Below the pieces are notes generated by a model. It was not told the DNA's origin, ran no database searches, and saw only the letters and a program-made list of their open reading frames with translations. This document shows positions 1 through 17,524 of a DNA stretch of 43,774 bases, in pieces; within the stretch, counting starts at the first letter, position 1, and each line of letters starts with the position of its first letter. The DNA comes from Rhodospirillales bacterium 20-60-12 (GTDB taxonomy: Bacteria; Pseudomonadota; Alphaproteobacteria; Acetobacterales; Acetobacteraceae), in contig NCAP01000006.1 of the NCBI GenBank assembly GCA_002255495.1, positions 1-43,774 on the forward strand, written 5' to 3'. A program made the position numbers and the translations under genes.

Positions 1-89
1 ACGCCTAAACTAAAGAGCAACGCGACCAAGCCTCCCGCAAAGCCATAACGAAAAATGCGTTGGAATAGGTTAATGGTCGGATTACTCAA
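1..89 (-). CDS. Start of a small membrane protein, possibly GtrA-like (cut by window edge)
   Basis: Reading left from the asparagine-synthase stop, a TTG codon at 89-87 opens a frame that stays open to the window edge. It encodes about 29 residues: a short polar head (SNPTINLFQRIFRY) and then a hydrophobic stretch (GFAGGLVALLFSLG). GtrA-family sugar-lipid flippase subunits often begin this way, with a basic/aromatic head ending in RF/RY followed by G-rich membrane helix 1. GtrA genes also commonly sit beside polyprenyl-phosphate GT2 genes like the one at 1948. The TTG overlaps the upstream stop region by 8 bases, which suggests translational coupling. Only the first residues are visible, so the family is inference. 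Confidence 0.4.
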   Translation of the reverse strand, partial: MSNPTINLFQRIFRYGFAGGLVALLFSLG

Positions 90-1941: not shown

Positions 1942-1947
1942 ATTCGT

Positions 1948-2910
1948 CTATGACCAATCTATATCTATATTTTGGATAGACTGGGCAGCTATTTCTTTCA
2001 CATAATATATTTTTTTTGATTGCGACTCAAAATAAACTCTAACAGCAATTTCTGCCAATAACCCAATTAGTATGCTCATAATTCCCATCATAAATGACAT
2101 TGCAACCAAAAGCGGCAATGGCGTTAAGATCATTGACAAATGTTTAAAGAATTTGAGATATAATACGTCCCCTAAAGTTAGAGCAGATACGAGGAGCCAT
2201 AATATACCGAAGCCACCGAAGACATAAATCGGCTTCCCAATCCAGCGATCCAAAAAACACACCACGATAAGATCAAGTATGACTTTTAGTATTCTTATTG
2301 TACCGTAATTTGATTTCCCGAACGCTCGCGGGTGATGTTTTACTTCGATCTCGGTAATACGGGCTCCGTACCATGACGCGTAGATAGGGATAAACCTGTG
2401 CATCTCACCATAGAGCTTTACGTGAGTAATTACTGATCGGCGATACGCTTTTAGCGAACACCCATAATCATGAAGTGCTACGCCAGAAAGTTTTGAAATA
2501 ATCCAGTTGGCCCGACGACTCAAAAAGTTTCGTCTAATCGGAGAATCGTTCCTATTTCGTCGCCATCCAGAGACAACGTCGAATCCTTCGTTGAGTTTGT
2601 CGAGTAGCCGTGGGATGTCCATTGGGTCATTTTGCAGGTCAGCATCGATCGGAACGATAATTGTGCCAACTGAATTATCAAGGCCCGCCATCATCGGAAC
2701 CGCCTTCAATCGTGTTTCAAAAGCCGCGATTTTCGTTAACACATCAAATGAACGATCTGAACTTCCATCGTCTACTGCGATGATTTCGAATTTTAAAGTA
2801 GTTTGGTCGAGTGTCTCAATGATTTTAGAAATTAAAATCGGGAGCGCCCGCTCCTCGTTGAAGATCGGAACAATAATCGACACTAAATCAAGGTATTTTT
2901 GCTTATGCAC
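1948..2910 (-). CDS. GT2 family polyprenyl-phosphate glycosyltransferase (DPM1/ArnC-like)
   Basis: The protein begins with the GT2 nucleotide-sugar domain: SIIVPIFNEE at the start, VDDGSSD, then the metal-binding IDADLQNDP. Two hydrophobic C-terminal segments (around GGFGILWLLVSALTL and MSFMMGIMSILIGLL) match transferases that load a sugar onto undecaprenyl phosphate at the inner membrane. The start is uncertain. The frame is open to a TTG at 2985 and an ATG at 2949. I prefer GTG at 2910 because GGGAGA lies about 10 bases upstream and the core fold begins ten residues later. It is 6 bases from the asparagine synthase and AT-rich like it, so the two probably travel and are transcribed together. 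Donor sugar unknown. Confidence 0.87.
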   Translation of the reverse strand: MHKQKYLDLVSIIVPIFNEERALPILISKIIETLDQTTLKFEIIAVDDGSSDRSFDVLTKIAAFETRLKAVPMMAGLDNSVGTIIVPIDADLQNDPMDIPRLLDKLNEGFDVVSGWRRNRNDSPIRRNFLSRRANWIISKLSGVALHDYGCSLKAYRRSVITHVKLYGEMHRFIPIYASWYGARITEIEVKHHPRAFGKSNYGTIRILKVILDLIVVCFLDRWIGKPIYVFGGFGILWLLVSALTLGDVLYLKFFKHLSMILTPLPLLVAMSFMMGIMSILIGLLAEIAVRVYFESQSKKIYYVKEIAAQSIQNIDIDWS

Positions 2911-3025
2911 CGCTAATAGTTCTCCCAAATTGATACCCTTGAAAGCCATTAATGACACACATGATATCCCCCATCCAAAATCCAAAAGTCGTATTCGCTA
3001 ACGACGATTCCAAGTTATTCACCAC

Positions 3026-4246
3026 TCAGGCCACCCTTGCATGCGATTCCCTAATCAAATCAACCGGCTGTTGAAGGAGCCGCAACGCCATCACTGCAGC
3101 GCAGAGGAGCAAAATGGGTGTCAGGAGGATGTGGATGAGGCTTGTTGTCAGAAGGCAGAGGCCGGGCCAGGTGAATAGCAGCACGTCGAGAAAGCCGATG
3201 CGCCAGTCGCGTTGTTCAGCCAAGCAAAGGAGAGCGATTGAATAGCCTGCCATGTCATCAACATAGCCGTAAGGTGAGCATAACAGTGTGAGAAACACGG
3301 TGATTGCCATACGGGCGAGCGGGTTGACGCTCTGAGTGCGCCACACGTGCCACACCATGATTGTTGCCAGACCGGCGCTGATGATTTGGGCGGTGTAGGC
3401 GACCGCGAGGTTGCTGCCCAGGCTGCGCGCCATCCAGAATATTGATACGCCAATTGTTTGATAACCTTGCGGGTAGATGTCCTCCAAAATGCCGCGGCTG
3501 TTGGCCGGTGCGTTGGCCCAGAAATTGGACCAAACGGAGGGGCCGAATGACAAGGTCACTAAGGCGGCTAGCACCGCCGTGATGGTGCAGGCCATGGCGA
3601 TGGCGCGGGCGTTGCGCTGTGCCAGCCAGACGATGGGTATCAGCAGGGCAATTTGCGGCTTGAGGATCATGATGGCGGTCAGCCCGCCGCTGAGAGGCGG
3701 CCGGCGCGGTGCGGCGAGCAGTGAGGCCACAAACGCCGCGCCGACGAGGGTGCCGTATTGGCCCAGCATCATGGAATAGATCGACGCCGGCGAGAAAATG
3801 CCGAGCAGAATAACCGGCCATGACAGCCGCACCAGCCGCAGCAAAAATGCGGAACCGAGAACGCTCAACAGCGTCCATACGATGTAGCTGGTTCTGAGGC
3901 CCATCCATGACATAGGCACGGCAAGAAGCAGGTTGAAAGGCGGATAGATCCAATCGGTCGTGATGATGCGCGCGCCGAAATATGCGCGCCGCCACAACTC
4001 GAAGAGATAGGATGAATAAAGCGTATCGGTGCGCCCGGAGGCAGCGAGCTTGCCGGCTGCCCATAAATTGGCGAAATCGCCCTCGGGCATTGTACGGGTG
4101 GTATTGAGTGCAAATCTGATGCCGTGCGCCCAGCGAACCTCGAACGCGATGGCAAACACAAAAACCACCATGGCGCCCAGTAAAAAGGCCATCACCAAAA
4201 CCGCCAGCGGTTTGAGGCGCAGCGAACCCCTGCCCGGCTCAGCCAC
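3026..4246 (-). CDS. GT87/DUF2029-type polytopic glycosyltransferase
   Basis: About 406 residues with roughly ten hydrophobic segments. The first large periplasmic-type loop carries PEGDFANLWAAG, followed by a WIYPPFNLLLAVP block and, later, MILKPQIALLIPIVWL. These are hallmarks of GT87 (DUF2029) proteins, relatives of PimE/AftC-type mannosyl- and arabinosyl-transferases that use polyprenyl-phosphate sugars. The frame runs open for 81 codons more upstream, but that part is proline/arginine-rich and lies inside the preceding gene, so it is a shadow. I chose GTG at 4246, which overlaps the stop of the upstream gene and gives a normal basic head before helix 1. ATG at 4192 is an alternative. Function within a glycan pathway is inferred from family and neighbours. 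Confidence 0.78.
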   Translation of the reverse strand: MAEPGRGSLRLKPLAVLVMAFLLGAMVVFVFAIAFEVRWAHGIRFALNTTRTMPEGDFANLWAAGKLAASGRTDTLYSSYLFELWRRAYFGARIITTDWIYPPFNLLLAVPMSWMGLRTSYIVWTLLSVLGSAFLLRLVRLSWPVILLGIFSPASIYSMMLGQYGTLVGAAFVASLLAAPRRPPLSGGLTAIMILKPQIALLIPIVWLAQRNARAIAMACTITAVLAALVTLSFGPSVWSNFWANAPANSRGILEDIYPQGYQTIGVSIFWMARSLGSNLAVAYTAQIISAGLATIMVWHVWRTQSVNPLARMAITVFLTLLCSPYGYVDDMAGYSIALLCLAEQRDWRIGFLDVLLFTWPGLCLLTTSLIHILLTPILLLCAAVMALRLLQQPVDLIRESHARVA

Positions 4247-5963
4247 CGGCGACGCGGTAGAGGTCGTAGCCGCCTGGCGTTGGGGGTTCAACGCGCTTGA
4301 GCCAAGGTGGGGGATGGCCGGCGAGAATTGAATCGAGCAATGAATCGTCCGGCGCGCCCTGGACCAGCAGCGAATGGCCGGCGGCGGGGCACACCAGGAC
4401 CAGTTGCGCATGCGTGGCGCGGAAGGCGGGCGGGATTTGGGTGCCCGCGGGCGCCCGCCAGGCGGCGCGCAGGCGCAGGAACCCGGCAATGCCGTTTTGA
4501 TAGAGCGAGCCGACGGTGATGATGTTTGTTCGCCATAGGAGTTCCGGTGTGTCGTTCACGTCAGCCAGCACAATATAGCCGGCATAAGGCGCTAAATTCT
4601 TGCTGAATAGATTTAAATCGCACGGGGTGAGATGATTTGCGGGGCTTGGATGGCCGGCGGGCACAAAAACCGCGAGGCGGGGTGCGACGACCATCAAGGC
4701 CACCAGCGCGATGCGGGAGAGCATGGCGCCGAGCGTGTCTTCGCCGAGCGCGCTTGTGATGTCGGTCAGCATGACCGGCAGAAGCCCCGCCGCCATAAGG
4801 GATGAGAACGGCGAGAAACGGGCGAATCGGAGGGCGAGGACGAGCGCAAATATCAGCGCGGCCATGGTGTAGAGCCAAATCCAGTGCTTGCGGCGTTGCC
4901 AGGAGAGGCCCGCATAGATCAACGCCACCACACCGGGGAGCAGAAATTCCACCGCCATGGGCCAGCTCTGGATGGGCTGCATTTCAATGATCGGGCCGAA
5001 AAACCGCTTGGCGTCGGCCGGGCTCATCAATCCGAACGGGCCGAGGGCGACTTTGGGGAATAAAGCGAGCCAGGCCAGAATGCATAAGCCGCCGAGCGGG
5101 ATGGCCGCGATCGGGCGCGGGCCGATCCGCCCGAGCGCCCAGGTGAGCAGGGCGACATCGACCCCGAGGGCGACATAGACGATGGAAAGCCGGTCAATTT
5201 CCGGGGTGAGCCACCCGCCATGGGGCGGATCGAGCAGGCAGGCGGCGAGCAGCATGAGGGCGAAGGCGCGGCCGACCACGCCGATCGGGGCTGCTTGATT
5301 ACCCAGCCAGACCAGGAAAAACCCGCCGAATAGGAGGAGAATGAAGGGCATGGTCTCAGGCGTGATCCAGATGGCGATGCCGCCTGCCGCACCGGCGAGC
5401 CAGGCGGGGTGGCTGGCGCCCGCGCGAGCGCGGACCAGACAGCCGGCGCAAAACGCGATCGGCACGAGTAAAATGACGTGATGGGTGACCACGCCGGGCA
5501 GGGCGTAATTGGCCAAAGCGGGCATCAGCACCGCGGCGATGGGGGCGAGGAGGAGAAATTTCCGTCCAGCGAAGGGGGCGGCGGCGAAGGCGATACTGAG
5601 CCCGAGCAAGCCGACGGCGATGGGCCCGAACGCGACGCCGGCGACGAATAGAGCCGATTTCCAGCCGAGCCAGGGGGCCAGAGGGGCAGCCATGACGAGC
5701 AGGAGGGCATCGAGCAGGCGGGACCATTCGACCAGAACCCCGGCGCCGGAATCGTCGCGGGCGACCATATTGGTCAAATGCCCGGCCTGGATGCCCTGCC
5801 AGATGCGCTCCAGGCGCATATAGCTGTCGGGGTCGCTCAGGGTGCCGTGCAGCACGGCATGCCAGTTCAGAAAGCCGGCCACGATGTTCAGCGCGACGCC
5901 GAGCAGAAAAATCAGCCCCCAGCCGGGTTGTCCGGCTGAGGGCTGGGCGACATTAATGCTCAA
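4239..5963 (-). CDS. STT3/GT-C-like polytopic membrane protein
   Basis: A 574-residue protein with a TTG start and about 12 hydrophobic segments. After helix 1 comes a loop with HGTLSDPDSYMRLERIW. An acidic pair followed by Tyr and Arg is the typical first-loop signature of GT-C oligosaccharyltransferases and related enzymes (STT3, PglB, ArnT-like). A C-terminal part of about 130 residues after the last helix is soluble-looking and ends VAGG. It probably transfers a lipid-linked sugar on the periplasmic face. The next gene (GT87-like) overlaps its end, so the two form a pair. GC is high here, unlike the following GT2-asnB part. Exact substrate and family assignment are not certain. Confidence 0.68.
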   Translation of the reverse strand: MSINVAQPSAGQPGWGLIFLLGVALNIVAGFLNWHAVLHGTLSDPDSYMRLERIWQGIQAGHLTNMVARDDSGAGVLVEWSRLLDALLLVMAAPLAPWLGWKSALFVAGVAFGPIAVGLLGLSIAFAAAPFAGRKFLLLAPIAAVLMPALANYALPGVVTHHVILLVPIAFCAGCLVRARAGASHPAWLAGAAGGIAIWITPETMPFILLLFGGFFLVWLGNQAAPIGVVGRAFALMLLAACLLDPPHGGWLTPEIDRLSIVYVALGVDVALLTWALGRIGPRPIAAIPLGGLCILAWLALFPKVALGPFGLMSPADAKRFFGPIIEMQPIQSWPMAVEFLLPGVVALIYAGLSWQRRKHWIWLYTMAALIFALVLALRFARFSPFSSLMAAGLLPVMLTDITSALGEDTLGAMLSRIALVALMVVAPRLAVFVPAGHPSPANHLTPCDLNLFSKNLAPYAGYIVLADVNDTPELLWRTNIITVGSLYQNGIAGFLRLRAAWRAPAGTQIPPAFRATHAQLVLVCPAAGHSLLVQGAPDDSLLDSILAGHPPPWLKRVEPPTPGGYDLYRVAGG

Positions 5964-6010
5964 GAGGGCGCGCTCAAGACAGGGCGGCCATGACCCCTCA
6001 ATCGCAGGGG

Positions 6011-6676
6011 TTAATCGGCGGCCAGGGCGATTTGCTTACGCGACATTGCCCTTGTGACATATTCCTCGGTGGCTTCGGCGACCTGATCGGCATGATTGGC
6101 AAACACATGGTCCGCCCCCTGATAGACCCGGTAATCGATGGCGACGCCTTTTTGCAGATTCAATTTGTCGACCAGTTTGCGCACCGAGTTTTCCGGCACC
6201 AAATCGTCCGAGTCGCCATGGATCATCAGCCCGCTGCACGGGCATGGGGCGAGGAAGCCGAAATCGTAATGCGCGGCGGGCGGGGCAACACTGACCCAGC
6301 CTGAAACCTCGGGCCGGCGCATCAGCAATTGCATGCCGACAAAGGCGCCGAAGGAGTAGCCCGCGATCCACAAGCCGGCATGGCCGGGATTGAGCGCCTG
6401 CATCCAGTCCAACGCGGCAGCGGCATCGTTGATTTCGCCCATGCCGCCGTCGAACTTGCCCTGGCTGCGGCCGACGCCGCGGAAATTGAACCGCATCACG
6501 GAGAAGCCGAGGCGCTGGAACACCTGATACATCGTGAAAGTTATGCGATTATTCATGGTGCCGCCATGCAGCGGGTGCGGGTGCAGGACCAGGGCCAGCG
6601 GCGCGCCGCGCTCTTTGGCATGGTGATAACGACCCTCAAGCCGGCCATCTGGGCCGGTAAACATCATCTCAGGCAT
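6011..6676 (-). CDS. Alpha/beta hydrolase of the COG2945 type
   Basis: 221 residues, close to the usual size for this short hydrolase family. The nucleophile elbow is GYSFG (Ser near residue 107), after the oxyanion-type segment HPHPLHGG near residue 33. A late GDSDDLVPE carries a likely acid residue, and GADHVF supplies the catalytic His. The family is widespread in proteobacteria and its substrate is unknown, though small esters are usual. It lies upstream of the membrane-protein pair on the same strand with a 47-base gap, so co-transcription is possible but functional linkage is not evident. The start MPEMMFTGPDG fits family members. Confidence 0.85.
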   Translation of the reverse strand: MPEMMFTGPDGRLEGRYHHAKERGAPLALVLHPHPLHGGTMNNRITFTMYQVFQRLGFSVMRFNFRGVGRSQGKFDGGMGEINDAAAALDWMQALNPGHAGLWIAGYSFGAFVGMQLLMRRPEVSGWVSVAPPAAHYDFGFLAPCPCSGLMIHGDSDDLVPENSVRKLVDKLNLQKGVAIDYRVYQGADHVFANHADQVAEATEEYVTRAMSRKQIALAAD

Positions 6677-6825
6677 TTTGTGTTTAATCCGCTTTCCGTC
6701 TAAATCCGTTGTACCCCGCAGCCTGAACCCCTGACGGCGATCCGGGCTGCAATCATGTTTCTGGCCTGTATCGGCCCGATAAGCTTATGAGTTGGCTCCC
6801 GATCTGCCCCTCTTAAAATCGACTA

Positions 6826-6898
6826 CCCCAATCTGACACCCAGCGTGGCGCCGAACCTGGCGCCCAATCTGACCCCCAACTTGACCCCCCAACTTGAC
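6826..6898. repeat. Six-unit 12-bp tandem repeat
   Basis: Six imperfect copies of a 12-base unit (plus-strand consensus CCCCAAYCTGAC) run head to tail, with one extra C between units 5 and 6. They sit in the 351-base gene-free gap between the hydrolase and cysE. The rest of that gap holds only a possible cysE promoter. On the minus strand the units read as a V-R-L-G tetrapeptide repeat, but no convincing gene carries it. Confidence 0.8.
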
Positions 6899-6961
6899 CA
6901 ACGCCCAGCGGATACCCAGTTGCCGTGCAAGCGCAGAGATGGTTGACTAGATGATAAGCAA

Positions 6962-6991
6962 TTGTCGCCCAACCTCTGGCCGACATAGTAT
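6962..6991 (+). promoter_or_regulatory. Possible sigma70 promoter of cysE operon
   Basis: TTGTCG and TAGTAT are separated by 18 bases and end 36 bases before the cysE start. The match is moderate and no operator is evident. Inference from sequence only. Confidence 0.3.
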
Positions 6992-7027
6992 AAGAGCAGT
7001 TCACCAATTTTTCTATGGAATTGTCGC

Positions 7028-7693
7028 ATGGCCTTCATGTTTTTGCGTGAGAGCATCCAGGCTTACCGGCAGCGCGACCCCGCGGCGCGGTCGAATTTGG
7101 AAGTTCTGCTTTGCTATCCGGGGCTTCATGCGGTTGGGGTGCATGCGCTGTCGCATTTCTTCTGGACCCGTCAATTCTACACGCTGGCGCGGTTTATCTC
7201 GCACCTGGGGCGGTTCCTGACGGGCATCGAAATTCACCCCGGGGCGACGCTGGGCCGCCGGTTGATCATCGATCACGGCATGGGTGTGGTGATCGGCGAG
7301 ACGGCGGAACTGGGCGATGATGTTTATATATATCATCAGGTTACGTTGGGCGGCACCAGCAGCGAAATGGGCAAGCGGCACCCGACCATCGGCCATAACG
7401 TGATCATCGGCGCGGGGGCGAAAGTGCTCGGCGCCATTTTGATCGGCGATAATGCGCGGATCGGGGCGAATGCCGTGGTGGTGGCCGAAGTGCCGGCCGG
7501 CACCACGGTGGTGGGGATTCCGGCGCATCCGGTCGAGCGCACCAGCAAGCCGCGTTTCGATGCCTATGGCACGCCATGCGATCCGTGCCTTGACCCGCTC
7601 TTGCAGGAGGTCGCGACCTTGCGGGCCGAATTGAACGATTTGGAAGGCCGGCTGGACCGCGAGGCCCGAGCGACCGCGCCGAGCAAGAACTGA
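7028..7693 (+). CDS. cysE: Serine O-acetyltransferase
   Basis: Acetylates L-serine with acetyl-CoA to O-acetylserine, the carbon skeleton for cysteine. The 221-residue protein has a short helical N-terminal domain, then left-handed beta-helix hexapeptide repeats from about residue 75. The family signatures [18 protein letters not shown] and YHQVTLGG are intact, including the catalytic His of the DHG motif. The short form resembles EpsC/NifP-type enzymes rather than the 270-residue enteric CysE. Start ATG has GGAA about 8 bases upstream. It heads a compact plus-strand run with a cysteine desulfurase 11 bases downstream, a ferredoxin and mnmA, so its product probably feeds cysteine to the sulfur-transfer steps. 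Confidence 0.93.
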
Positions 7694-7704
7694 GTTTCAT
7701 CGAC

Positions 7705-8832
7705 TTGGTCTATTTGGATGCCAATGCCTCCGAGCCGCTGCATCCGGCAGCCCGGGCGGCGATGCTGGCGGCGCTGGAGCAGCCGGGCAACCCGGCTTCC
7801 ATCCATGGCGCGGGGCGGGCGGCGCGGCGGGTGTTGGAATCGGCGCGGGAGTCACTCGCCGCGCGGTTCCATGCGGCACCGGGCGATTTGATTTTCACCT
7901 CCGGGGCGACCGAGGCCGATGCGCTGGCCATTCATGCGCTGGGGGCGGGCCGGCCGGTTCTGATCGGCGCGACCGAGCATGACGCGGTGCGGGCGGCGGC
8001 GCCGGGGGCTGTTATTATTCCCGTGCGGCAGAGCGGCGAGGTTGATCTGCCGACGCTTGAGGCATTGCTGCGCACGCATGAAAACGCCTTGGTGTGCCTG
8101 ATGTCGGCGAATAACGAGACCGGCGTGCTGCATCCGCTGGCGGACGCGGCTTCGTTATGCGCGAGATATCACGCGCTGCTGCATGTCGATGCGGTGCAGA
8201 CCGCCGGGCGGGTGGAGATTGATTATCTGGCCCTGGGGGCTGCGAGCTTCGCCGTTTCGGCGCATAAACTGGGTGGGCCGCTTGGGGCGGGGGCGTTGAT
8301 TTGCGCGGCGGGCCTGGCGGATCATATCAAGCCCTTGATTGCCGGTGGCGGGCAGGAACGCGGGCGGCGCGGCGGCACGCCGGCTTTGCCGGCGCTGGCC
8401 GGCTTTGCCGCCGCCGCCATGGTGGCGCGGCCCGATTTAAGGGCGGCCCGCGAGCGGATTGAACAGGCCGCGCGCGCCTGCGGCGCATTGGTGATGGGCG
8501 AGGCGGCACCAAGGCTGGGCAATACGAGCTGCCTTGCTCTACCCGGGGCTCGGGGGGGGGTTCGGGCGGAGACGCAGGTGATTGCCCTGGATATGGCGGG
8601 CTTTTGCGTCTCAGCGGGATCGGCTTGTTCCTCGGGCAAGGTCGCGCGGAGCCATGTGCTGGCCGCCATGGGGTATGCCGATCACGCGGGCGATGCGATC
8701 CGGGTATCGCTGCCGTGGAATCTGCGCGATGGCGATGTCGATCAATTCATCGTTGCATACCGGGCGATGGCCGAACGCGCCTTGCGCAAACCAGGCGATA
8801 TCTCTAGTTCCCCTCCTGTTCGCGCCGCCTGA
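7705..8832 (+). CDS. Cysteine desulfurase, class V aminotransferase (NifS/IscS-like)
   Basis: A PLP enzyme that takes sulfur from cysteine and holds it as a persulfide. The 375 residues include YLDANASEP at the start, the cofactor segment SANNETG, HVDAVQTAG, and the Schiff-base lysine in SAHKLGGP. The persulfide cysteine sits in SAGSACSSGK. This is the IscS/NifS (group I) loop. The start is TTG, 11 bases after cysE. A run of nine G at 8552-8560 lies inside the gene, but the frame continues correctly into the active-site loop. No IscU or IscA gene is adjacent, so a dedicated Fe-S scaffold partner is not visible. The nearby mnmA suggests supply for tRNA thiolation. Confidence 0.92.
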   Translation: MVYLDANASEPLHPAARAAMLAALEQPGNPASIHGAGRAARRVLESARESLAARFHAAPGDLIFTSGATEADALAIHALGAGRPVLIGATEHDAVRAAAPGAVIIPVRQSGEVDLPTLEALLRTHENALVCLMSANNETGVLHPLADAASLCARYHALLHVDAVQTAGRVEIDYLALGAASFAVSAHKLGGPLGAGALICAAGLADHIKPLIAGGGQERGRRGGTPALPALAGFAAAAMVARPDLRAARERIEQAARACGALVMGEAAPRLGNTSCLALPGARGGVRAETQVIALDMAGFCVSAGSACSSGKVARSHVLAAMGYADHAGDAIRVSLPWNLRDGDVDQFIVAYRAMAERALRKPGDISSSPPVRAA

Positions 8833-8856
8833 GCGGCGCCTGTTCCGGGGATTGCC

Positions 8857-9186
8857 ATGCCGACCATGATTTTCGTTGAACGCGACGGCACTGAACGCGC
8901 GGTGGACGCGCCGATCGGCCTTTCGATATTGGAGGTCGCGCATAAGCACGGCATCGATATCGAGGGCGCGTGCGAGGGCTCGCTGGCCTGTTCGACCTGC
9001 CATGTGATCATCGACCCGACCTGGTATGAGCGGCTCGCCAAAGCGAGCGAGGACGAGGAGGATATGCTCGATCTGGCGTTTGGGCTTGAGAAAACCTCGC
9101 GGCTGGGCTGCCAGATCGTGATGAGCGAGAGCCTGGATGGCTTGCGCGTCAAATTGCCGTCCTCCGTGCGCAATAATATGGCCTGA
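8857..9186 (+). CDS. 2Fe-2S ferredoxin, adrenodoxin/ISC type
   Basis: A 109-residue electron carrier. The cluster cysteines lie in [16 protein letters not shown], with the fourth in RLGCQI near residue 86. The spacing is that of vertebrate-type (ISC, adrenodoxin) ferredoxins rather than plant type. The acidic [10 protein letters not shown] segment matches the partner-binding helix of the family. In ISC operons such ferredoxins give electrons for Fe-S assembly on IscU. Here it sits directly between the desulfurase and mnmA, 24 bases after the former, which supports the same role. Could also serve a P450 or other oxidase, though none is nearby. Confidence 0.93.
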
Positions 9187-9193
9187 TCGGATT

Positions 9194-10267
9194 ATGCGTA
9201 TCGTCGTTGCCATGTCGGGGGGGGTGGATAGTTCGGTTGTGGCCGGGCTGATGCATCAGGCCGGGCATGAGGTGATCGGCGTGACCTTGCAGCTTTACGA
9301 CCAGGGGGCGGCCGCCGGGCGCCGGGGTGCGTGTTGCGCGGGGGCGGATATTCATGACGCCAAACGCGTGGCTGACCGGCTGGGTTTTGCCCATTACGTG
9401 ATCGATGCCGAGCAGATATTCCGCGCCAGCGTGATTGATGAATTCGCCGATTCCTATGCCAATGGCAGCACGCCCGTGCCCTGCGTATCGTGCAACCAGC
9501 ATCTGAAATTCGGCTTTTTGCTCGACATGGCGCGCGACCTTGGTGCCGAGGCGATGGCGACGGGCCATTATGTCAAGCGCGTCGAGGGGCCGGATGGCGC
9601 GCAATTGCATGTCGCGGCGGACCCGGTGCGCGACCAGAGCTGGTTCCTGTTCGCCACGACCCGCGAGCAACTGGAATTCTCCCGCTTTCCACTTGGTGAC
9701 ATGCAGGACAAGGCGCAGGTTCGGGCGATTGCCGCTGAGATGGGTCTGGCGGTGGCCGACAAGCCCGACAGCCAGGATATTTGTTTCGTGCCGAGCGGAT
9801 CTTACGCCGATATCGTTACCAAATTGCGCCCTGAGACGGCGGAGCCCGGCGAGATTGTGACGGCCGCGGGTGAGGTGGTTGGTGCGCATCAGGGCATCGC
9901 CCGCTACACGGTTGGCCAGGGCAAAAGGCTGGGCGAGGCTTCCGAGCGTGACGGCGCGCGGCAGATTGTTACCGCCATTGATGCCGCCACGCGGCGGATT
10001 GTCATCGGCCCGCGCAGCAGCGGTGCGCGCTTGGTGCAGATTGAGCGGGTGAATTGGTTGATCGAGCCGCCGTCATCGGCGCTGCGCGCGCGGGTCAAAT
10101 TGCGCGCCCGTCAGGCGCCGGAGCCTGCCCAGATCATGCGCACGGCACAAGGTGCGGAAATTCATCTCGATGAGCCGGGCCTTGCCGCACCCGGACAGGC
10201 TTGCGTGATTTACGACGGCACCCGCGTTCTGGGCGGCGGGTTTATTGCGGCCCCTGCACGGCCGTAG
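9194..10267 (+). CDS. mnmA: tRNA 2-thiouridine(34) synthase MnmA
   Basis: Puts sulfur on U34 of the Lys, Glu and Gln tRNAs, after activating the base with ATP. The PP-loop SGGVDSSV is at residues 8-15 and the first catalytic cysteine is in PCVSCNQHLKFG near residue 98. The second catalytic cysteine is in DSQDICFVPSGSY near residue 195. Length 357 residues is normal. The frame is open further upstream to 9137 inside the ferredoxin, but the ATG at 9194 starts exactly at the conserved MRIVVAMSGG, so I use it. It follows the ferredoxin stop by 7 bases. The sulfur donor is presumably the desulfurase upstream. The PP-loop is encoded through an 8-G run. Confidence 0.95.
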   Translation: MRIVVAMSGGVDSSVVAGLMHQAGHEVIGVTLQLYDQGAAAGRRGACCAGADIHDAKRVADRLGFAHYVIDAEQIFRASVIDEFADSYANGSTPVPCVSCNQHLKFGFLLDMARDLGAEAMATGHYVKRVEGPDGAQLHVAADPVRDQSWFLFATTREQLEFSRFPLGDMQDKAQVRAIAAEMGLAVADKPDSQDICFVPSGSYADIVTKLRPETAEPGEIVTAAGEVVGAHQGIARYTVGQGKRLGEASERDGARQIVTAIDAATRRIVIGPRSSGARLVQIERVNWLIEPPSSALRARVKLRARQAPEPAQIMRTAQGAEIHLDEPGLAAPGQACVIYDGTRVLGGGFIAAPARP

Positions 10268-10448
10268 AGCGGCCGGCAAAGCATTTCGGATCTGCCCGCG
10301 ATGGATTTATGCCGGGGCCCGATGATAGCGATATCGATATTATTCTGACTTCGATCGAATTTAATTGATTCCGGCGGGATAATTCCGTTACGTATGCGCT
10401 TACAGGTTGCAAGTATGAATGTTTGCAACCGCAGAGGGCAAATTTGTC

Positions 10449-11948
10449 ATGTCGCAGACAATCGGAATTCCCGCCGGCGCCTCTTATGATCTGACGACCG
10501 CTTTGAGCGGCACGATCCTGGCCTTTGCGGGCACTCTGGCGACTTTGACGCTGGAGCCACAGGATATTTTGGGCAGCTTGGGCAGCAACGGCACCATGAG
10601 CGTCAGTCTGGGTGGCGTGGTGGAGAATATGCAGCCCACGGACCGGGTGATTATCAATGATATCGAGCAGGTTTATGCCGGTTTGCTCAGCGGGCCGAGC
10701 GCCATGGCGGAATTGACCGCTTTTGACAGCGCCATCAGTTTTGCGGCCCTGACCCATATTGATTTCGTCATCGATCCGGGCGGGTCGATCAGCGGGGCTT
10801 TGGGTGCATCGGCGGTGTATCTGCCGGCCATCGATGAAGCGATATTCGGTGCGGGGGTTTTGGCCGACACGATCGATATCAAGCCGCTTTTGATCAATGG
10901 CTCTTACGAGGCCATCATCACCTCGCCAGAGCCGGTCAATCCTTGCTTTTTGCGCGGCACGCGGATCAGCACAGCACGCGGTGAAATCCCGGTCGAAGAG
11001 CTGGCCGTGGGCGATTTGGTGCCGACGATTGGCGGGATCATGCGGCCGATCATCTGGGTGGGGCAGCGCCGGGTCGATATCACACGCCACACACGCCCGG
11101 CGACGGTGCGGCCGATCCGGATCAAGAAAGGCGCTTTGGCCGAGGGCATACCGCGGCGGGATTTGCTGCTTTCGCCTGATCATGGGTTGTTGCTCGAAAA
11201 TGTTCTGGCGCAAGCAAAGGATATTGTGGATGGCGATGTCATCGCGCCGGACATGAACGCAAGATCGGCGCATTATTTCCATGTCGAACTTGCTGAGCAT
11301 GACGCTTTGTTCGCCGAAGGGGCGGCGGTTGAGAGCTATCTCGATACCGGGCAGCGCGGCGTGTTCGCGCACGAGACGGCGCCGGTTATTTTGCATCCAG
11401 ATCTGATGAATTTATGCCGCGAAAGCCAGGGTTTTGCGCCGCTCTGCACCAAGGGGGACACGCTCGCGCTGATCCGCACGCGCCTGCATGAGCGCAAACG
11501 CGCGCTGGGGTATGTGATGATCCAGGCGCCGGTATGGTTGAAGGCGGGTCCGGTCATTTTGTCACCTTTCGAAGCTGAGCCTGGTCTTTTGCAATTTGAT
11601 CTGCCCGATTTTGTGAGGCGGCCGCGTTTGATGGCGGGACAATTCGTGCCGGCCTACACTGACCCTGGGGCGAGCGATCATCGCGTGCTTGGCATGTCGA
11701 TCGCGCGGGTGACGTTGGATGATGAAATTCTGAACCTGGACCGGGTGATCGATGCGGGTGACCGCCATCCGCGTGCGCCGGAGGACGTGGCGATTTGGTT
11801 ACGCGGCGATTGCGATTTGCATTTGCCGTGGGCAGGCCGGCAATTAAGCATCCGCTACACGGGGCTGCCGCAGATTTGGCAATCTATGGTTGTTGATGCA
11901 TCGCAATACGCAATAAATTCTGAAAATATGCACAATATATCAGGATAA
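10449..11948 (+). CDS. Hint (hedgehog/intein) domain protein, first of three
   Basis: 499 residues, in three parts. Residues 1-165 are a Gly/Ala/Ser/Thr-rich, beta-prone region without a signal peptide. A Hint_2-type domain starts at Cys166 (CFLRGTRI) and includes LSPDH (His245), the equivalent of the Hint TxxH block. A C-terminal part after about residue 300 is shared with the two paralogues downstream (HPDLM, DHRVLGMSIARVTLD, RHPRAPEDVAIW). In known Hint proteins the first cysteine attacks the preceding peptide bond and can release or modify the N-terminal part. Whether that happens here is not known. Start ATG 10449 is chosen over 10419 because AGAGGG lies 10 bases upstream and the paralogues begin likewise. 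Confidence 0.88.
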   Translation: MSQTIGIPAGASYDLTTALSGTILAFAGTLATLTLEPQDILGSLGSNGTMSVSLGGVVENMQPTDRVIINDIEQVYAGLLSGPSAMAELTAFDSAISFAALTHIDFVIDPGGSISGALGASAVYLPAIDEAIFGAGVLADTIDIKPLLINGSYEAIITSPEPVNPCFLRGTRISTARGEIPVEELAVGDLVPTIGGIMRPIIWVGQRRVDITRHTRPATVRPIRIKKGALAEGIPRRDLLLSPDHGLLLENVLAQAKDIVDGDVIAPDMNARSAHYFHVELAEHDALFAEGAAVESYLDTGQRGVFAHETAPVILHPDLMNLCRESQGFAPLCTKGDTLALIRTRLHERKRALGYVMIQAPVWLKAGPVILSPFEAEPGLLQFDLPDFVRRPRLMAGQFVPAYTDPGASDHRVLGMSIARVTLDDEILNLDRVIDAGDRHPRAPEDVAIWLRGDCDLHLPWAGRQLSIRYTGLPQIWQSMVVDASQYAINSENMHNISG

Positions 11949-12025
11949 AATTGATCGACTCCTGATATTTATGTTGCTGCGCTGACCAGAGGGACGTATT
12001 AAAGCTGCGTCAGGGAGGCGATGCG

Positions 12026-13543
12026 ATGTCGGGCATAATCGTAAGTGACGGAACGCCGGTAACCTTAACGAGCGGCCTCAATGGCGGCAACGTGACCTTT
12101 GCCAATAGCCCGACGCCTGGCGGCACCTTGGTTGTTGAACCGGGGGCGATCGGGGTGAGCACTTCGGTATCGGCCGGCGTGACGTCGGTGATCAGTGCGT
12201 ATCTCGGCGGCAATATCGAGGGGTTCAGGCCCGGCGATACCATCGTCATCAGCAATCTCGAGCAGCTTTATGCCGATCTCGACAAAGCGCCTTCGGCGGC
12301 TGCCAATAATGCGTTATTCAACTCCGATATTTCGATTGCAGCGGCCAATGGCGTCGCGTTTTACGTCAAGCCGGGCGGTTATGTGACCTCGAATAATTTG
12401 TTTATAAATTTTGAGTTATCCACTCTGGAGCCCGTCATAGAGCCGTATTTTGGGCTCATTGACGAAGCCCTGTTCGGCTCCAGCACATTGACCGGCACGT
12501 TGACGATTGCCGCCGTGACCGACATGTCGGGCAGTTTCGTCAACGGGGTCATAACCTCGGCGCAGACCATCAGTGCGGCATGTTTCGCCGCCGGCACCCG
12601 GATTGCCACGGCCACGGGTGGGACAAAGGGCGAGGTAAAGGTTGAGACGCTGCGGGTGGGTGATGTTGTGCGCACGATGAGCGGCAAAATGCGGCCCATC
12701 ACCTGGGTTGGCCATCGGGACATCGATATCACGCGCCATCCTAAACCGGAATCCGTCCGCCCTGTGCGGGTTCGCGCCGGGGCGCTGGCTGAGCAGATTC
12801 CCGCACGCGATTTGATTTTATCGCCCGATCACGCGCTTTACCTCGAGGGGCGGTTGGTGCCGGTGAAAGATCTGATCGATGGCGATTTGATCGCGCCGAT
12901 GACCGGCGCCCAGAAAGTGACTTATTTTCATATCGAACTGGATGGGCATGATATCCTGCTCGCCAATGGCGCCCCTGCCGAGAGTTATCTTGATACCGGC
13001 AATCGTTTCATGTTCGAGGATGCGGGCGCGCCGATGATTTTGCACCCCGATTTGATGGCCGTGTTTCGCGACGTTAAGGGGTGCGCGCCGCTTTGCACGG
13101 ATGGTGCCGATTTGGCGAAGATTCGCAGCGTATTGCATCGACGCAAACAGGCGCTCGGTTTTCGGATGCAGGCCGCGACACCCTGGCTGAAACATCCGCA
13201 GATGATTCTCTCGGCGATTGAACCTGAGCCTGGATTATTGTTGTTTCATCTGCCCGGGCAGGACATTACATTCATGCTGATGACCGGCGCGTTCGTGCCC
13301 GCTTATATCGATCCATCCTCGGCCGACCATCGGCAGCTTGGCATGTGCATCGGCCATGTGACGCTGGATGGTAAGCGGCTGGCTGTTGAAGATGTGATCG
13401 ATCAGGCCGACCGTTACCCGCGCGCCGAACATGATTTGGGTATTTGGACCAAGGGCGATGTCACACTCAGTCTGCCTCATCCAGGGACCGAGCTTGTGAT
13501 TGGCTACACGGCGCTGCCGATCATGTGGCGACGCGCGGCCTGA
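12026..13543 (+). CDS. Hint domain protein, second of three
   Basis: 505 residues with the same order as its neighbours. The N-terminal beta-prone region (1-185) begins SGIIVSDGTPVTLTSGLNGG. The Hint domain starts at Cys186 (CFAAGTRI) with SPDH at 266-269 and YFHIELDGHDILLANG. The conserved C-terminal part contains HPDLM, DHRQLGMCIGHVTLD and RYPRAEHDLGIW. GGAGG sits 8 bases before the ATG. The 77-base gap to the first Hint gene holds no terminator, so the two may share a transcript. No signal peptide, membrane helix or splicing-type C-terminal HN motif was seen, so protein splicing is unlikely. Family recognised, function unknown. Confidence 0.88.
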   Translation: MSGIIVSDGTPVTLTSGLNGGNVTFANSPTPGGTLVVEPGAIGVSTSVSAGVTSVISAYLGGNIEGFRPGDTIVISNLEQLYADLDKAPSAAANNALFNSDISIAAANGVAFYVKPGGYVTSNNLFINFELSTLEPVIEPYFGLIDEALFGSSTLTGTLTIAAVTDMSGSFVNGVITSAQTISAACFAAGTRIATATGGTKGEVKVETLRVGDVVRTMSGKMRPITWVGHRDIDITRHPKPESVRPVRVRAGALAEQIPARDLILSPDHALYLEGRLVPVKDLIDGDLIAPMTGAQKVTYFHIELDGHDILLANGAPAESYLDTGNRFMFEDAGAPMILHPDLMAVFRDVKGCAPLCTDGADLAKIRSVLHRRKQALGFRMQAATPWLKHPQMILSAIEPEPGLLLFHLPGQDITFMLMTGAFVPAYIDPSSADHRQLGMCIGHVTLDGKRLAVEDVIDQADRYPRAEHDLGIWTKGDVTLSLPHPGTELVIGYTALPIMWRRAA

Positions 13544-13555
13544 TTGTTCACTTTG

Positions 13556-13617
13556 TCGATCAATTTCATGCGTTCAGATTGAATGTTGCGGTTAATCTAA
13601 ACGCAGATTGATTTCAT
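13556..13617. repeat. Palindromic intergenic repeat, ATGCGTT type, copy 1
   Basis: TCGATCAATTTCATGCGTT is followed, after about 20 bases, by TCTAAACGCAGATTGAT, so the ends form an imperfect inverted repeat. The same left arm and a matching right arm recur at 42094-42155. It begins 12 bases after the second Hint gene, in the 467-base gap 13544-14010. The remainder of that gap is AT-rich and holds only a promoter candidate. Confidence 0.7.
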
Positions 13618-13913
13618 CGGGCCACGGGTTTCCGCCGGCGACAGCGCCGAATGAGGGTTGTTTATCGCCCTGATGGGACAAAACAAGCCGCTTGAGCCGG
13701 CCATCCGGTGTGTTTTGCCCTCCGCTGGACAGAGGTTTTCAGCCTGAGATTTATGTCATTATAGGCGCCTTAAATTTAATCTAACGCTTACGCGCAAGTT
13801 AATCGATGCCTATTTCGGCCAACACAACCTATACAATTAGAAGTGGTTGATTTGGCTGTATATTAGGATAAACCTGCCAAAACAGGGAGATTTTGAAATA
13901 TTAAGTATCATTT

Positions 13914-13942
13914 TTCAGAGTAGTTTTGATAAATTCTATAAT
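13914..13942 (+). promoter_or_regulatory. Possible promoter of third Hint gene
   Basis: A perfect TATAAT at 13937-13942 is preceded, at a 17-base spacing, by the weak -35 candidate TTCAGA. Transcription would begin about 60 bases before the ATG. The surrounding several hundred bases are the most AT-rich stretch of this part of the window. Activity is inferred. Confidence 0.38.
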
Positions 13943-14010
13943 TTACATATTTGTTGACCAAACGTCGATTTCGTCTCAAATTCGGACGAAATAGCGAGGG
14001 GGAACATATT

Positions 14011-15606
14011 ATGTCCGGTTCAGTTTACGATACGATCACGAATGGCCAGACGTTAACGTTAACGTCTTCACTTAATGGCGGGTCGGTCGATTTCAGCGGC
14101 ACGTCGGGTTCTTTGATCATCGATTCCAGCGCCGTCAGCGGGTCTGCGGCTGCGCCATCAACACTCCTGGTCGATGGCAAAGTGTTCAATTTTGGACCCA
14201 ATGATAATGTTGTGCTCAGTGATATCGTCTCCGACCTGAGCAAAATCGGCTATAATAATATCGCTACTCTTCTTCCTGACTTGTTTCTCGGCGACGCATC
14301 GCCGAGTCTGACCATCACACCGGGCGCCGCAACAGGCGCTGTGGTTAATGGTATCCCGCTTTATGGTTCTCTGACCTCGAATAATAGCCTATTTGGATTT
14401 GTCGCAGCGCCAGGTTCGGCAAATTATAATTCCATTATGGCGTCGCTTGAACTGATCGAGATTCAGTCACTCGGCAAGAATTATTCGAATTCGGCCTTGT
14501 CCAACGCGACCTTCTCGCTTGATTTGTCCAGTGCGGTTGTCAATGGCACGACCATTTACAACGGCACGCTGCACACAACCCAGGACGTCAATATCAATCC
14601 CCACCCCTGTTTTGCCGAGGGCACGCGCATTGCCACGTTGCGCGGCGAGATTGCGGTGGAGGCGTTGAAAATCGGCGATGCGGTTGTCCTCGCCGATGGC
14701 CGGAATTGCCGGATCAGCTGGATTGGTCAGCGGGATTTGGATATTGAGCGCCATGCGCGACCCGAGCAGGTGCGGCCCGTGCGGATCAGCGCCGGCGCCT
14801 TTGCCGCCGGCATTCCCAAACGCGACCTCGTTGTCTCGCCCGATCATGCGTTCCTGATGGAGGGCGTTCTGGTGCAGGCGAAGGACCTGGTTGATGATGT
14901 GACGATCAGGTTTGATCGCTCGATCCGCCAGATCCGCTATTTCCATGTCGAATTGCCGGCCCATGACATTTTACTGGCTGAGGGTGCTGCGGCCGAATCC
15001 TTCCTCGATACCGGCCATCGCGGTGTGTTCGACAATGATGACGCGCCGGTGATTTTGCATCCTGACATGATGCAAAACCGGCGCGAGGCACAAGGATGCG
15101 CGCTGCTCTGCACCGGTGGCGAAACGCTTGCCCTGATTCGCCAGACGCTCAGCGCCCGCAAGGCGGCTTTGGGTTACCAGGTGAGCGAGACGACGCCATG
15201 GCTGAAAGCAGGCGGGATGATTCTGGCCCCCGATATCAGCCAGAGCGGGCAATTGACGTTTCATCTGCCCGATCATGCGGCTGGAGCCTTAATATCCGTG
15301 GAGTTGCTCAGCGGCTGCTTCTCGCCGGCCAGCATTGAACCGACATCAGATGATCATCGCAGCCTTGGCATGGCGATTGCCGGTATCTCGCTCGATGGCG
15401 AGATGCTGGAGCTTGAGAATGTCATCCCGGCATCGCACCGCCACCCGAGGGCGGAGGGCGACAGCGCGATTTGGACCACCGGCAACACGATGCTGATTTT
15501 ACCGCCTGAGGGCACGATATTGACCATTCATTATGCCGGCCTGCCGCGGGATTGGCGCCGCCTGCCGGCCAAGTCATCCAATGCTGCGAGGGCCCAGGCG
15601 GCCTGA
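14011..15606 (+). CDS. Hint domain protein, third of three
   Basis: 531 residues. The N-terminal region (1-199) is the longest of the three and rich in Ser, Thr, Asn and Gly, starting SGSVYDTITNGQTLTLTSSL. Its LNGGSVDF/GTSGSLIID pattern parallels LNGGNVTF in the second paralogue. The Hint domain begins at Cys200 (CFAEGTRI), with SPDH at 276-279 and YFHVELPAHDILLAEG. The C-terminal part matches the others (HPDMM, DHRSLGMAIAGISLD, RHPRAEGDSAIW). Start ATG 14011 has GAGGGGGA 7 bases upstream, so the open codons back to 13951 are not used. Unlike gene 2 it has its own long AT-rich leader, so it may be separately regulated. Confidence 0.88.
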   Translation: MSGSVYDTITNGQTLTLTSSLNGGSVDFSGTSGSLIIDSSAVSGSAAAPSTLLVDGKVFNFGPNDNVVLSDIVSDLSKIGYNNIATLLPDLFLGDASPSLTITPGAATGAVVNGIPLYGSLTSNNSLFGFVAAPGSANYNSIMASLELIEIQSLGKNYSNSALSNATFSLDLSSAVVNGTTIYNGTLHTTQDVNINPHPCFAEGTRIATLRGEIAVEALKIGDAVVLADGRNCRISWIGQRDLDIERHARPEQVRPVRISAGAFAAGIPKRDLVVSPDHAFLMEGVLVQAKDLVDDVTIRFDRSIRQIRYFHVELPAHDILLAEGAAAESFLDTGHRGVFDNDDAPVILHPDMMQNRREAQGCALLCTGGETLALIRQTLSARKAALGYQVSETTPWLKAGGMILAPDISQSGQLTFHLPDHAAGALISVELLSGCFSPASIEPTSDDHRSLGMAIAGISLDGEMLELENVIPASHRHPRAEGDSAIWTTGNTMLILPPEGTILTIHYAGLPRDWRRLPAKSSNAARAQAA

Positions 15607-15671
15607 CCACGCATGATCCATCCGAGGCTCTCTGCGGATAGACGGCCGCCGCAGTCAAGGGCGGCCTGATA

Positions 15672-15707
15672 CAAAACGCCTTCAACGCCCAGGTTGAAGG
15701 CGTTTTG
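15672..15707 (+). terminator. Strong hairpin terminator after Hint genes
   Basis: A perfect 15-base-pair stem (CAAAACGCCTTCAAC paired with GTTGAAGGCGTTTTG) with a short loop. The descending arm carries TTTT. It lies 66 bases after the third Hint stop. A second smaller hairpin of GGCGGCC type lies just before it. This separates the Hint region from the hfq promoter in the 301-base gap 15607-15907. Confidence 0.75.
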
Positions 15708-15750
15708 CATGGCGTGCCGCCGATCACGGCGCCGATCACGCCAATGATGA

Positions 15751-15779
15751 TTGGTTTTCCTGAGCGGCGTCGCTATAGT
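15751..15779 (+). promoter_or_regulatory. Sigma70-like promoter of hfq-hflX
   Basis: TTGGTT and TATAGT are separated by exactly 17 bases. A start near 15786 would give a leader of about 120 bases before the hfq GTG. Sequence match only. Confidence 0.5.
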
Positions 15780-15907
15780 TATGGGGGGTCGCTCTCGTGC
15801 CACGCGAGCGGACCCGGCTTGGCATCCCAAACTTGAGCCGTTCTCGGCTGACTGACATAACAACGCAACTATCGCCGCATGGCGACAACAACAAAAGGAA
15901 CTCAACC

Positions 15908-16231
15908 GTGGCCGCTGAAAAATCCCAGAACGTGCAGGACGTATTTCTCAATCACGTCCGCAAAAGCAAAACCCCGGTCACCGTGTTTTTGGTGAATGGC
16001 GTCAAATTACAGGGCGTGATCACCTGGTTCGATAATTTTTCGGTGCTGTTGCGCCGGGATGGCCACACGCAGCTTGTTTATAAGCATGCGATCAGCACGG
16101 TTATGCCTGGTGCGCCGATCCAGCTTTTTGACGCCACCAAGGCCGAGACCGGTGCCGCGCAAGCCGGGTCCACCGGTTCGACCCTGAGCCTGGGCCAGCG
16201 CAACGACATGCCGCAGGATAGTGACATGTAA
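15908..16231 (+). CDS. hfq: RNA chaperone Hfq
   Basis: The Sm-like hexameric protein that pairs small RNAs with messages. From GTG 15908 it is 107 residues: the Sm1 motif ([19 protein letters not shown]) and Sm2 motif ([11 protein letters not shown]) are intact, with [13 protein letters not shown] as the N-terminal helix. The tail after about residue 75 is low-complexity (Ala, Gly, Thr, Ser) and longer than in many alphaproteobacteria. The frame is open upstream to 15797, but AAAAGGAA sits 8 bases before the GTG and family proteins start there. hflX follows after 30 bases, the classical hfq-hflX order. Confidence 0.96.
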
Positions 16232-16261
16232 TGGCGCGCCAATGTCCCATGACATGTTGAT

Positions 16262-17524
16262 ATGACGATCAGCGGGGCCTCACGGGCGGCGGTTTTGCTG
16301 CCTTGGGAGAAATCGGGCCATGCCGCGCGGGCGGGCGAGGCGAGGCTGGCCGAGGCGGTCGGCCTGGCTGCATCGATCGGGCTGGTGATCACGCATAGCG
16401 CGATCATTCCGCTGCGTGCCCGCAAGCCGGCCACTTTGTTCGGCGAAGGCCAAGTGGCCAGCATAGGTGCCGCCATTGCCGAGCAGGAGGTTGCGGTTGC
16501 CATCGTCGATGCGACACTCACCCCGGTTCAGCAACGCAATCTGGAGCGGGCCTGGGGCTGCAAGGTGATCGACCGGACCGGTTTGATTTTGGATATTTTC
16601 GGCGAGCGCGCCCGAACCAGCGAAGGCGCTTTGCAGGTCGAGCTCGCGCATCTGGATTATCAGCGCTCGCGGCTGGTGCGGTCCTGGACCCATTTGGAGC
16701 GCCAGCGCGGCGGCTTCGGGTTTCTGGGCGGACCGGGGGAAACCCAGATCGAGGCGGATCGGCGTTTGATCGGCAATCGGATTGCCCGGCTGCGGCGCGA
16801 GCTTGAGGAGGTGCGGCGCACAAGGCAACTGCACCGCGCCGCGCGCAAGCGCGTGCCCTACCCGATCGTGGCGCTGGTCGGTTACACCAATGCCGGCAAA
16901 TCGACCTTGTTCAACGCCCTGACCGGGGCTGCGGTGCATGCCGAGGACCAGCTATTCGCGACCCTCGACCCGACGATGCGCGGCATTGTGCTGCCCTCCG
17001 GTCGGCAGATTATCCTCTCGGACACTGTGGGGTTCATCAGCGAACTGCCGACCGAATTGGTGGCGGCGTTTCGGGCGACACTTGAGGAAGTCGCTGAAGC
17101 GGATTTGCTGCTGCATATCCGCGACGCCGCCCACCCCGACACCGCCGCCCAGCGCAGCGATGTCATTGGCGTGCTCGACGGCATGGCCGCCCAGGGGATT
17201 TTGAGTGCGGATTGGGCGCAGCATAGTCTTGAAGTGCTCAATAAATCCGACCTGCTGCCCCACGATGCGACAGCGCCGGCGGGCAATGACATTGTGATTT
17301 CAGCCCTCACCGGCACTGGATTGCCGGGCTTGCTGGCCGCCATTGATCAGCGTCTTTCAGCGTCATTGGAGACCCTGACTTATGATCTGCCGGCCGAGGA
17401 TGGCGCGCGGCTGGCCTGGCTGTATCGCCATGGCGAGGTGATTGCGCGCGACGATCGTGAGGATGGGGTGCATGTCACGGTGCGTCTGGCGCCTGCCGAC
17501 CGCGCGCGCTTCGAGCCGGGATGA
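16262..17524 (+). CDS. hflX: Ribosome-associated GTPase HflX
   Basis: A GTPase that binds and splits stalled 70S ribosomes, mainly under stress. The 420 residues carry the HflX N-terminal domain, with LFGEGQV and the RTGLILDIFGERARTSEG segment. A helical linker (ERQRGGFGFLGGPGETQIE) follows. The G domain has G1 GYTNAGKST, G2 FATLDPT, G3 DTVGF and G4 NKSD. All are intact. It follows hfq closely and overlaps the next gene by 4 bases (ATGA), so the three are probably one transcript from the promoter near 15.75 kb. Confidence 0.96.
   Translation: MTISGASRAAVLLPWEKSGHAARAGEARLAEAVGLAASIGLVITHSAIIPLRARKPATLFGEGQVASIGAAIAEQEVAVAIVDATLTPVQQRNLERAWGCKVIDRTGLILDIFGERARTSEGALQVELAHLDYQRSRLVRSWTHLERQRGGFGFLGGPGETQIEADRRLIGNRIARLRRELEEVRRTRQLHRAARKRVPYPIVALVGYTNAGKSTLFNALTGAAVHAEDQLFATLDPTMRGIVLPSGRQIILSDTVGFISELPTELVAAFRATLEEVAEADLLLHIRDAAHPDTAAQRSDVIGVLDGMAAQGILSADWAQHSLEVLNKSDLLPHDATAPAGNDIVISALTGTGLPGLLAAIDQRLSASLETLTYDLPAEDGARLAWLYRHGEVIARDDREDGVHVTVRLAPADRARFEPG

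Follow-up and report, generated by a model that had tools for sequence, protein, structure and literature searches.

Three consecutive genes with a Hint domain behind a variable cargo

The window, by which we mean the whole stretch of 43,774 nucleotides analyzed here, carries three consecutive open reading frames on the forward strand, at 10449-11948, 12026-13543, and 14011-15606. For the first of them we used the start at 10449, picked to fit the MSxxI starts of the paralogues, and its Cys166 is numbered from there. The features of the three genes are as follows.

10449..11948, + strand: CDS 1, 499 aa from the start used; N-terminal cargo, Hint_2, and C-terminal domain
10449..10943, + strand: protein 1, variable N-terminal part, beta-rich, no Sec-type signal peptide seen
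10944..11348, + strand: protein 1, Hint_2 (Cys codon 10944-10946, SPDH 11172-11183)
11331-11336, + strand: protein 1, Glu-Ser replacing the intein His-Asn
11382..11945, + strand: protein 1, C-terminal domain, two helices and a beta-sandwich
12026..13543, + strand: CDS 2, 505 aa; N-terminal cargo, Hint_2, and C-terminal domain (AlphaFold model made)
12026..12580, + strand: protein 2, variable N-terminal part
12581..12997, + strand: protein 2, Hint_2 (Cys186 codon 12581-12583, SPDH 12821-12832, Glu319-Ser320 12980-12985)
13031..13540, + strand: protein 2, C-terminal domain (own AlphaFold model, mean pLDDT 94.6)
14011..15606, + strand: CDS 3, 531 aa; N-terminal cargo, Hint_2, and C-terminal domain
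14011..14607, + strand: protein 3, variable N-terminal part
14608..15012, + strand: protein 3, Hint_2 (Cys200 codon 14608-14610, SPDH 14836-14847, Glu-Ser 14995-15000)
15046..15603, + strand: protein 3, C-terminal domain

The Pfam profile Hint_2 (PF13403) matched the trio with E values of 1e-44, 7.7e-45, and 1.6e-45 (152.9 to 155.5 bits against a curated cut-off of 28.4). This confirmed the three neighboring Hint proteins that the initial annotation had recognized by Cys166, Cys186, Cys200, and an SPDH block, and in each of them the domain begins at the cysteine named. In local alignments, the trio shares ca. 57 to 61% identity in the Hint domain, 49 to 53% in the C-terminal part, and 34 to 36% in the N-terminal part, the last from partial alignments. 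The N-terminal parts are variable, as had been described, although they are distantly related to each other. Similarly, the C-terminal part reported as common to the three proteins is so within the trio but is not universal among relatives, where three C-terminal forms were found: a short one of ca. 190 residues counted from the Cys, a middle one of ca. 320 to 345 residues (that of the window trio), and a long one with a second beta-type region. The ca. 470 bases 5' of the third gene (13544-14010) are without an assigned gene and are AT-rich near their end.

Predicted fold and active site

An AlphaFold model of protein 2, obtained with an input of 107 sequences, had a mean pLDDT of 86, with most of the Hint and C-terminal parts above 90. 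Residues 183 to 323 of this model were aligned to known structures with VIA-align, and the best match among inteins reached a Z score of 13.2 (2.7 Å over 124 residues), followed by the Clostridium bacterial intein-like (BIL) domain 2lwy (Z 12.8, 2.3 Å, 117 residues) and hedgehog 1at0 (Z 11.1, 2.6 Å, 116 residues). The comparison with hedgehog and BIL domains proposed earlier as a check thus came out in favor of both, and protein 2, as modeled, carries a Hint fold. For the C-terminal domain, Foldseek and VIA-align retrieved no chain above Z 4.2; most of its weak matches (Z ≤4.2) were fucosidase C-terminal domains, which we considered uninterpretable.

The catalytic cysteine (Cys1) and the block-B His of the SPDH motif were present in 44/44 proteins from loci found by the HMM profile search, which used no Cys pattern (here called the unbiased set), and in 107/107 of a larger alignment partly biased by the search pattern. 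Judging from these residues, the N-terminal, acyl-shift half of the active site appears intact. At the other end, Cys186 fell in many VIA-align rows on residue 1 of the intein and Ser320 on its final residue (145 in 6rix, 440 in 2imz, 454 in 1dfa, 198 in 1am2, and 125 in 6qaz); both pairs are alignment end-points, so that the register rests on the agreement among rows. In this register, the penultimate His of inteins corresponds to Glu319 and the terminal Asn to Ser320, a position held by Ser or Thr across the family. The Glu was found in 107/107 sequences of the larger alignment, followed by Ser (89) or Thr (18) and then by Tyr, Phe, or Trp, and the Glu-[ST]-aromatic motif was present in all 44 proteins of the unbiased set. 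The lack of a C-terminal His-Asn noted in the initial annotation is therefore real, its structural equivalent being Glu-Ser. Because this replacement would make Asn cyclization impossible, canonical splicing, already thought unlikely, is excluded by the predicted active site, and Asn-driven C-terminal cleavage would be ruled out with it.

Class 1 inteins thus share with the trio the fold, Cys1, and the block-B His, but their penultimate His, terminal Asn, and +1 Cys/Ser/Thr are replaced here by Glu, Ser/Thr, and an aromatic residue, respectively. The hedgehog-like layout that had been put forward is supported. The Hint fold matches that of hedgehog, Cys1 and the SPDH His are intact, and the splicing residues are lost; both have the cargo-then-Hint order, with the N-terminal thioester side kept and the splicing side gone. 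Sequence comparison with hedgehog gave nothing significant past the first motif (motif A), and the general-base Asp could not be placed. No hedge-type domain appeared among the Pfam matches of the trio and of 91 N-terminal parts of the family, nor was a sterol-recognition region identified, the C-terminal domain having no confident fold match. Among BIL domains, type A is defined by a C-terminal His-Asn, whereas type B is described as lacking intein block G and as cleaving independently of splicing (PMC4031507). With Glu-Ser in place of His-Asn, the trio differs from type A and resembles type B in the Hint fold, Cys1, the absence of block G, and the bacterial host proteins, a likeness drawn from the published description; the names Hint_2 and type B BIL may denote the same domains.

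The junction before the catalytic cysteine

The residue preceding the Cys (position -1) is Pro in protein 1 (10941-10943), Ala in protein 2 (12578-12580), and Pro in protein 3 (14605-14607), and Pro occupies this position in 12 of 15 proteins of the same genome. In the unbiased set (n = 44), the counts were Pro 22, Ala 6, Val 6, Leu 4, Thr 4, Ser 1, and Ile 1, with Gly in none; we report the HMM-found set, as one retrieved with a [PA]CF pattern would bias these figures. Compared with a background of 3.3% Pro in the stretch before the Cys, the 22/44 at -1 correspond to a naive binomial P of 4e-21, which overstates the enrichment because the proteins counted are kin. Hedgehog has a Gly-Cys junction, while the Hint_2 family has mainly Pro, Ala, or Val before the Cys. 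That the same junction is found on unrelated cargoes points to processing at that site. Nevertheless, in ordinary inteins Pro at -1 is unfavorable to the acyl shift, which it slows, and the family preference for it is a puzzle against that chemistry.

Cargoes and putative export route

A Pfam search of the 91 N-terminal parts gave no match for most of them. The remainder included RTX (nine), AIDA-type adhesin repeats (six), right-handed beta-helix (three), M10 matrixin-type metalloproteases (two), and, among some other singles, a trypsin-like protease and a nuclease-like fold. Most other Hint_2 copies of the trio's own genome carry cargoes unlike those of the trio, whose N-terminal domain was found in none of the other genomes (60 searched). 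Distant relatives of this domain occur in Acidocella loci, joined to Hint without the C-terminal domain. The original work on BIL domains reportedly dealt with RTX-flanked domains and included type B examples from Rhodobacter.

By a crude test, a Sec-like hydrophobic stretch was seen in only 3/101 N-termini. RTX and serralysin-like proteins are classic type I substrates, and the genome holds one pair of type I ABC transporter and HlyD, followed by glycosyltransferases. From the absence of Sec-type signals, the RTX/serralysin-type cargoes, and this single type I locus, we infer a type I system as the likeliest way out for Hint_2 cargoes. HlyD was over the cut-off in 31/32 genomes with Hint_2 and in 17/28 without it (Fisher P 7e-4, with shared ancestry as a confounder), and its presence in those 17 means that the association may merely reflect the family; a single Hint_2 genome (G004) was without HlyD. 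The Hint_2 genes themselves adjoin housekeeping genes, not the exporter. Two long copies of the same genome end in a group 1 glycosyltransferase (L050, 7432-10266; L055, 7912-10728) and would be an odd type I cargo.

The type I locus (L142, G000:C5:22000-41000, 6660-17441) is a single same-strand run of the ABC transporter, HlyD, a Sel1-like repeat protein (recognized by eye), a 1,012-aa double glycosyltransferase, and another glycosyltransferase.

Distribution of the Hint_2 family

The trio belongs to a genome assembly of 2.97 Mb (94% complete) in which the profile search detected 16 Hint_2 genes. A further copy, truncated where contig C74 ends (L160, 1489-2112), was seen via its C-terminal domain and had been missed by the profile, which brings this unusually large set to at least 17 loci, scattered among housekeeping genes. 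One of the 16 (L058, G000:C78:2000-18000, ca. 6479-8950) is split over two frames, either as a pseudogene or through a sequencing or assembly error.

Hint_2 matches were found in 32 of 60 genomes (this one included), nearly all of the same family, with 1 to 22 matches in each of the Acetobacteraceae relatives. According to record titles, related loci come from Acidocella, Acidiphilium, Acidisoma, Roseomonas, and other Acetobacteraceae, and Hint_2 is also present on plasmids of Rhodobacterales, Rhizobiales, and Acetobacteraceae. In a wider draw from the class the domain was sparse (over the cut-off in 5/143 genomes). A phage origin was discarded, there being no match in phage records.

These are the domain and the taxa (Acetobacteraceae, Rhodobacterales, and Rhizobiales) of the Pfam alphaproteobacterial "Hint domain-containing protein," so that the trio represents new members of a known but functionally uncharacterized family, a large, poorly studied branch rather than a wholly new one. 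Its modules are numerous in Acetobacteraceae and Rhodobacterales. The domain is mentioned without an assigned function in a marine-bloom enrichment study (PMC12487129) and in a study of a cellulose-producing mutant (PMC11999647), and the literature searched contained no functional study of it.

A probable self-cleaving module and the fate of its putative thioester

The residues and the fold lead us to favor, as the probable explanation, a Hint module that sits C-terminal to an exported cargo, cleaves itself without splicing, and is close to type B BIL domains. Each gene would encode a cargo followed by an autoprocessing Hint-superfamily module that acts for a single turnover; Cys1 of this module would attack the peptide bond on its N-terminal side, usually Pro-Cys in this genome, and form a thioester. 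Water or an outside nucleophile would then resolve the thioester, releasing the cargo with a free or modified C-terminus, while the Hint and C-terminal domains would be shed. The proteins would leave the cell, less surely, via the type I system, and the module would act at the cell surface or outside the cell, like type B BIL domains. FrpC-type self-processing modules and type IX secretion tags also place one C-terminal module on varied exported cargo, with unrelated catalytic domains.

Water, an amine, or a glycan are the candidate acceptors, and we take hydrolysis by water as the default. If this holds, the family would provide a common maturation step of exported proteins. Hint_2 offers a bacterial, sterol-independent test case for the fate of a hedgehog-type thioester unable to splice, with a chemistry that is directly testable.

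Ligation to a surface nucleophile is suggested by the glycosyltransferase fusions and by some glycan-gene neighbors. Here, with the order and the chemistry side of hedgehog, a cell-surface sugar hydroxyl or amine would resolve the thioester and Hint_2 would anchor its cargo to the envelope, in the manner of type IX or sortase tags but by other chemistry. Apart from the two fused copies, the type I locus of the same genome is next to glycosyltransferases; a plasmid of Neokomagataea tanensis carries two Hint_2 genes followed by an annotated autotransporter strand-loop-strand O-heptosyltransferase (L145, 4022-10582); and Hint_2 genes are located within polysaccharide/capsule clusters in Phyllobacterium and near mannose-nucleotide genes in Microvirga. 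However, most neighborhoods are without glycan genes, and the neighbors cited were picked from few regions, with no background count. Around the own-genome Hint_2 genes, the 25 commonest of 100 neighbor Pfam families included no glycosyltransferase, and most neighbors were housekeeping genes. Moreover, the C-terminal domain, with a best Z of 4.2, is absent in the short relatives. We therefore hold this ligation to be a tentative and rather unlikely outcome. Slightly less credence still goes to its more specific form, a self-contained sorting tag that, after type I export, would move the cargo C-terminus off Cys1 and onto a glycan or amine at the surface, that is, sortase-like anchoring by hedgehog-type chemistry with the invariant Glu-Ser/Thr replacing the splicing residues. 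A surface acceptor, if true, would amount to a new protein-anchoring route.

The Hint part might instead be non-catalytic and serve as a stable fold or an export determinant. The rewriting of the C-terminal half of the active site to Glu-Ser/Thr would be in keeping with this, as would the Pro at -1, which would slow the acyl shift, but the invariance of Cys1 and the block-B His in the unbiased set, in so diverse a family, is hard to explain for a mere scaffold and makes a loss of catalysis improbable.

Returning to the self-cleaving module, the initial annotation had proposed that the N-terminal part receives a lipid or other nucleophile, possibly a hopanoid. In one own-genome locus (L049, G000:C56:12000-25000, 31-8261), hpnD (a partial ORF call), hpnE, and shc lie directly upstream of a 1,458-aa Hint_2 gene on the same strand, the single such arrangement in this genome, which speaks for the proposal. 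Among the Hint_2 matches listed for relatives, this order was absent, the nearest to a cyclase lying at ca. 21 kb (G001). Squalene-hopene cyclase was more frequent in Hint_2 genomes (27/32) than in the others (11/28), a difference confounded by family, but it was absent from G057, G160, and G027, each at least 99% complete and with 17, 13, and 8 Hint_2 matches, respectively, while five relatives had the cyclase and lacked Hint_2. As a general adduct the hopanoid is thus unsupported, given these three genomes and a gene order that does not recur in the relatives listed, and we regard a lipid or hopanoid on the N-terminal part as very improbable, though a lipid other than a hopanoid may still be the adduct.

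Finally, a polymorphic-toxin or contact-dependent effector delivery module, a kind of protein in which Hint domains are known, is scarcely credible here, given that the trio has no toxin domain C-terminal to Hint, that the C-terminal end is conserved, and that the diversity, including enzymes and beta-repeats, lies on the N-terminal side, the reverse of the polymorphic-toxin layout, just as had been observed from the trio at the outset.
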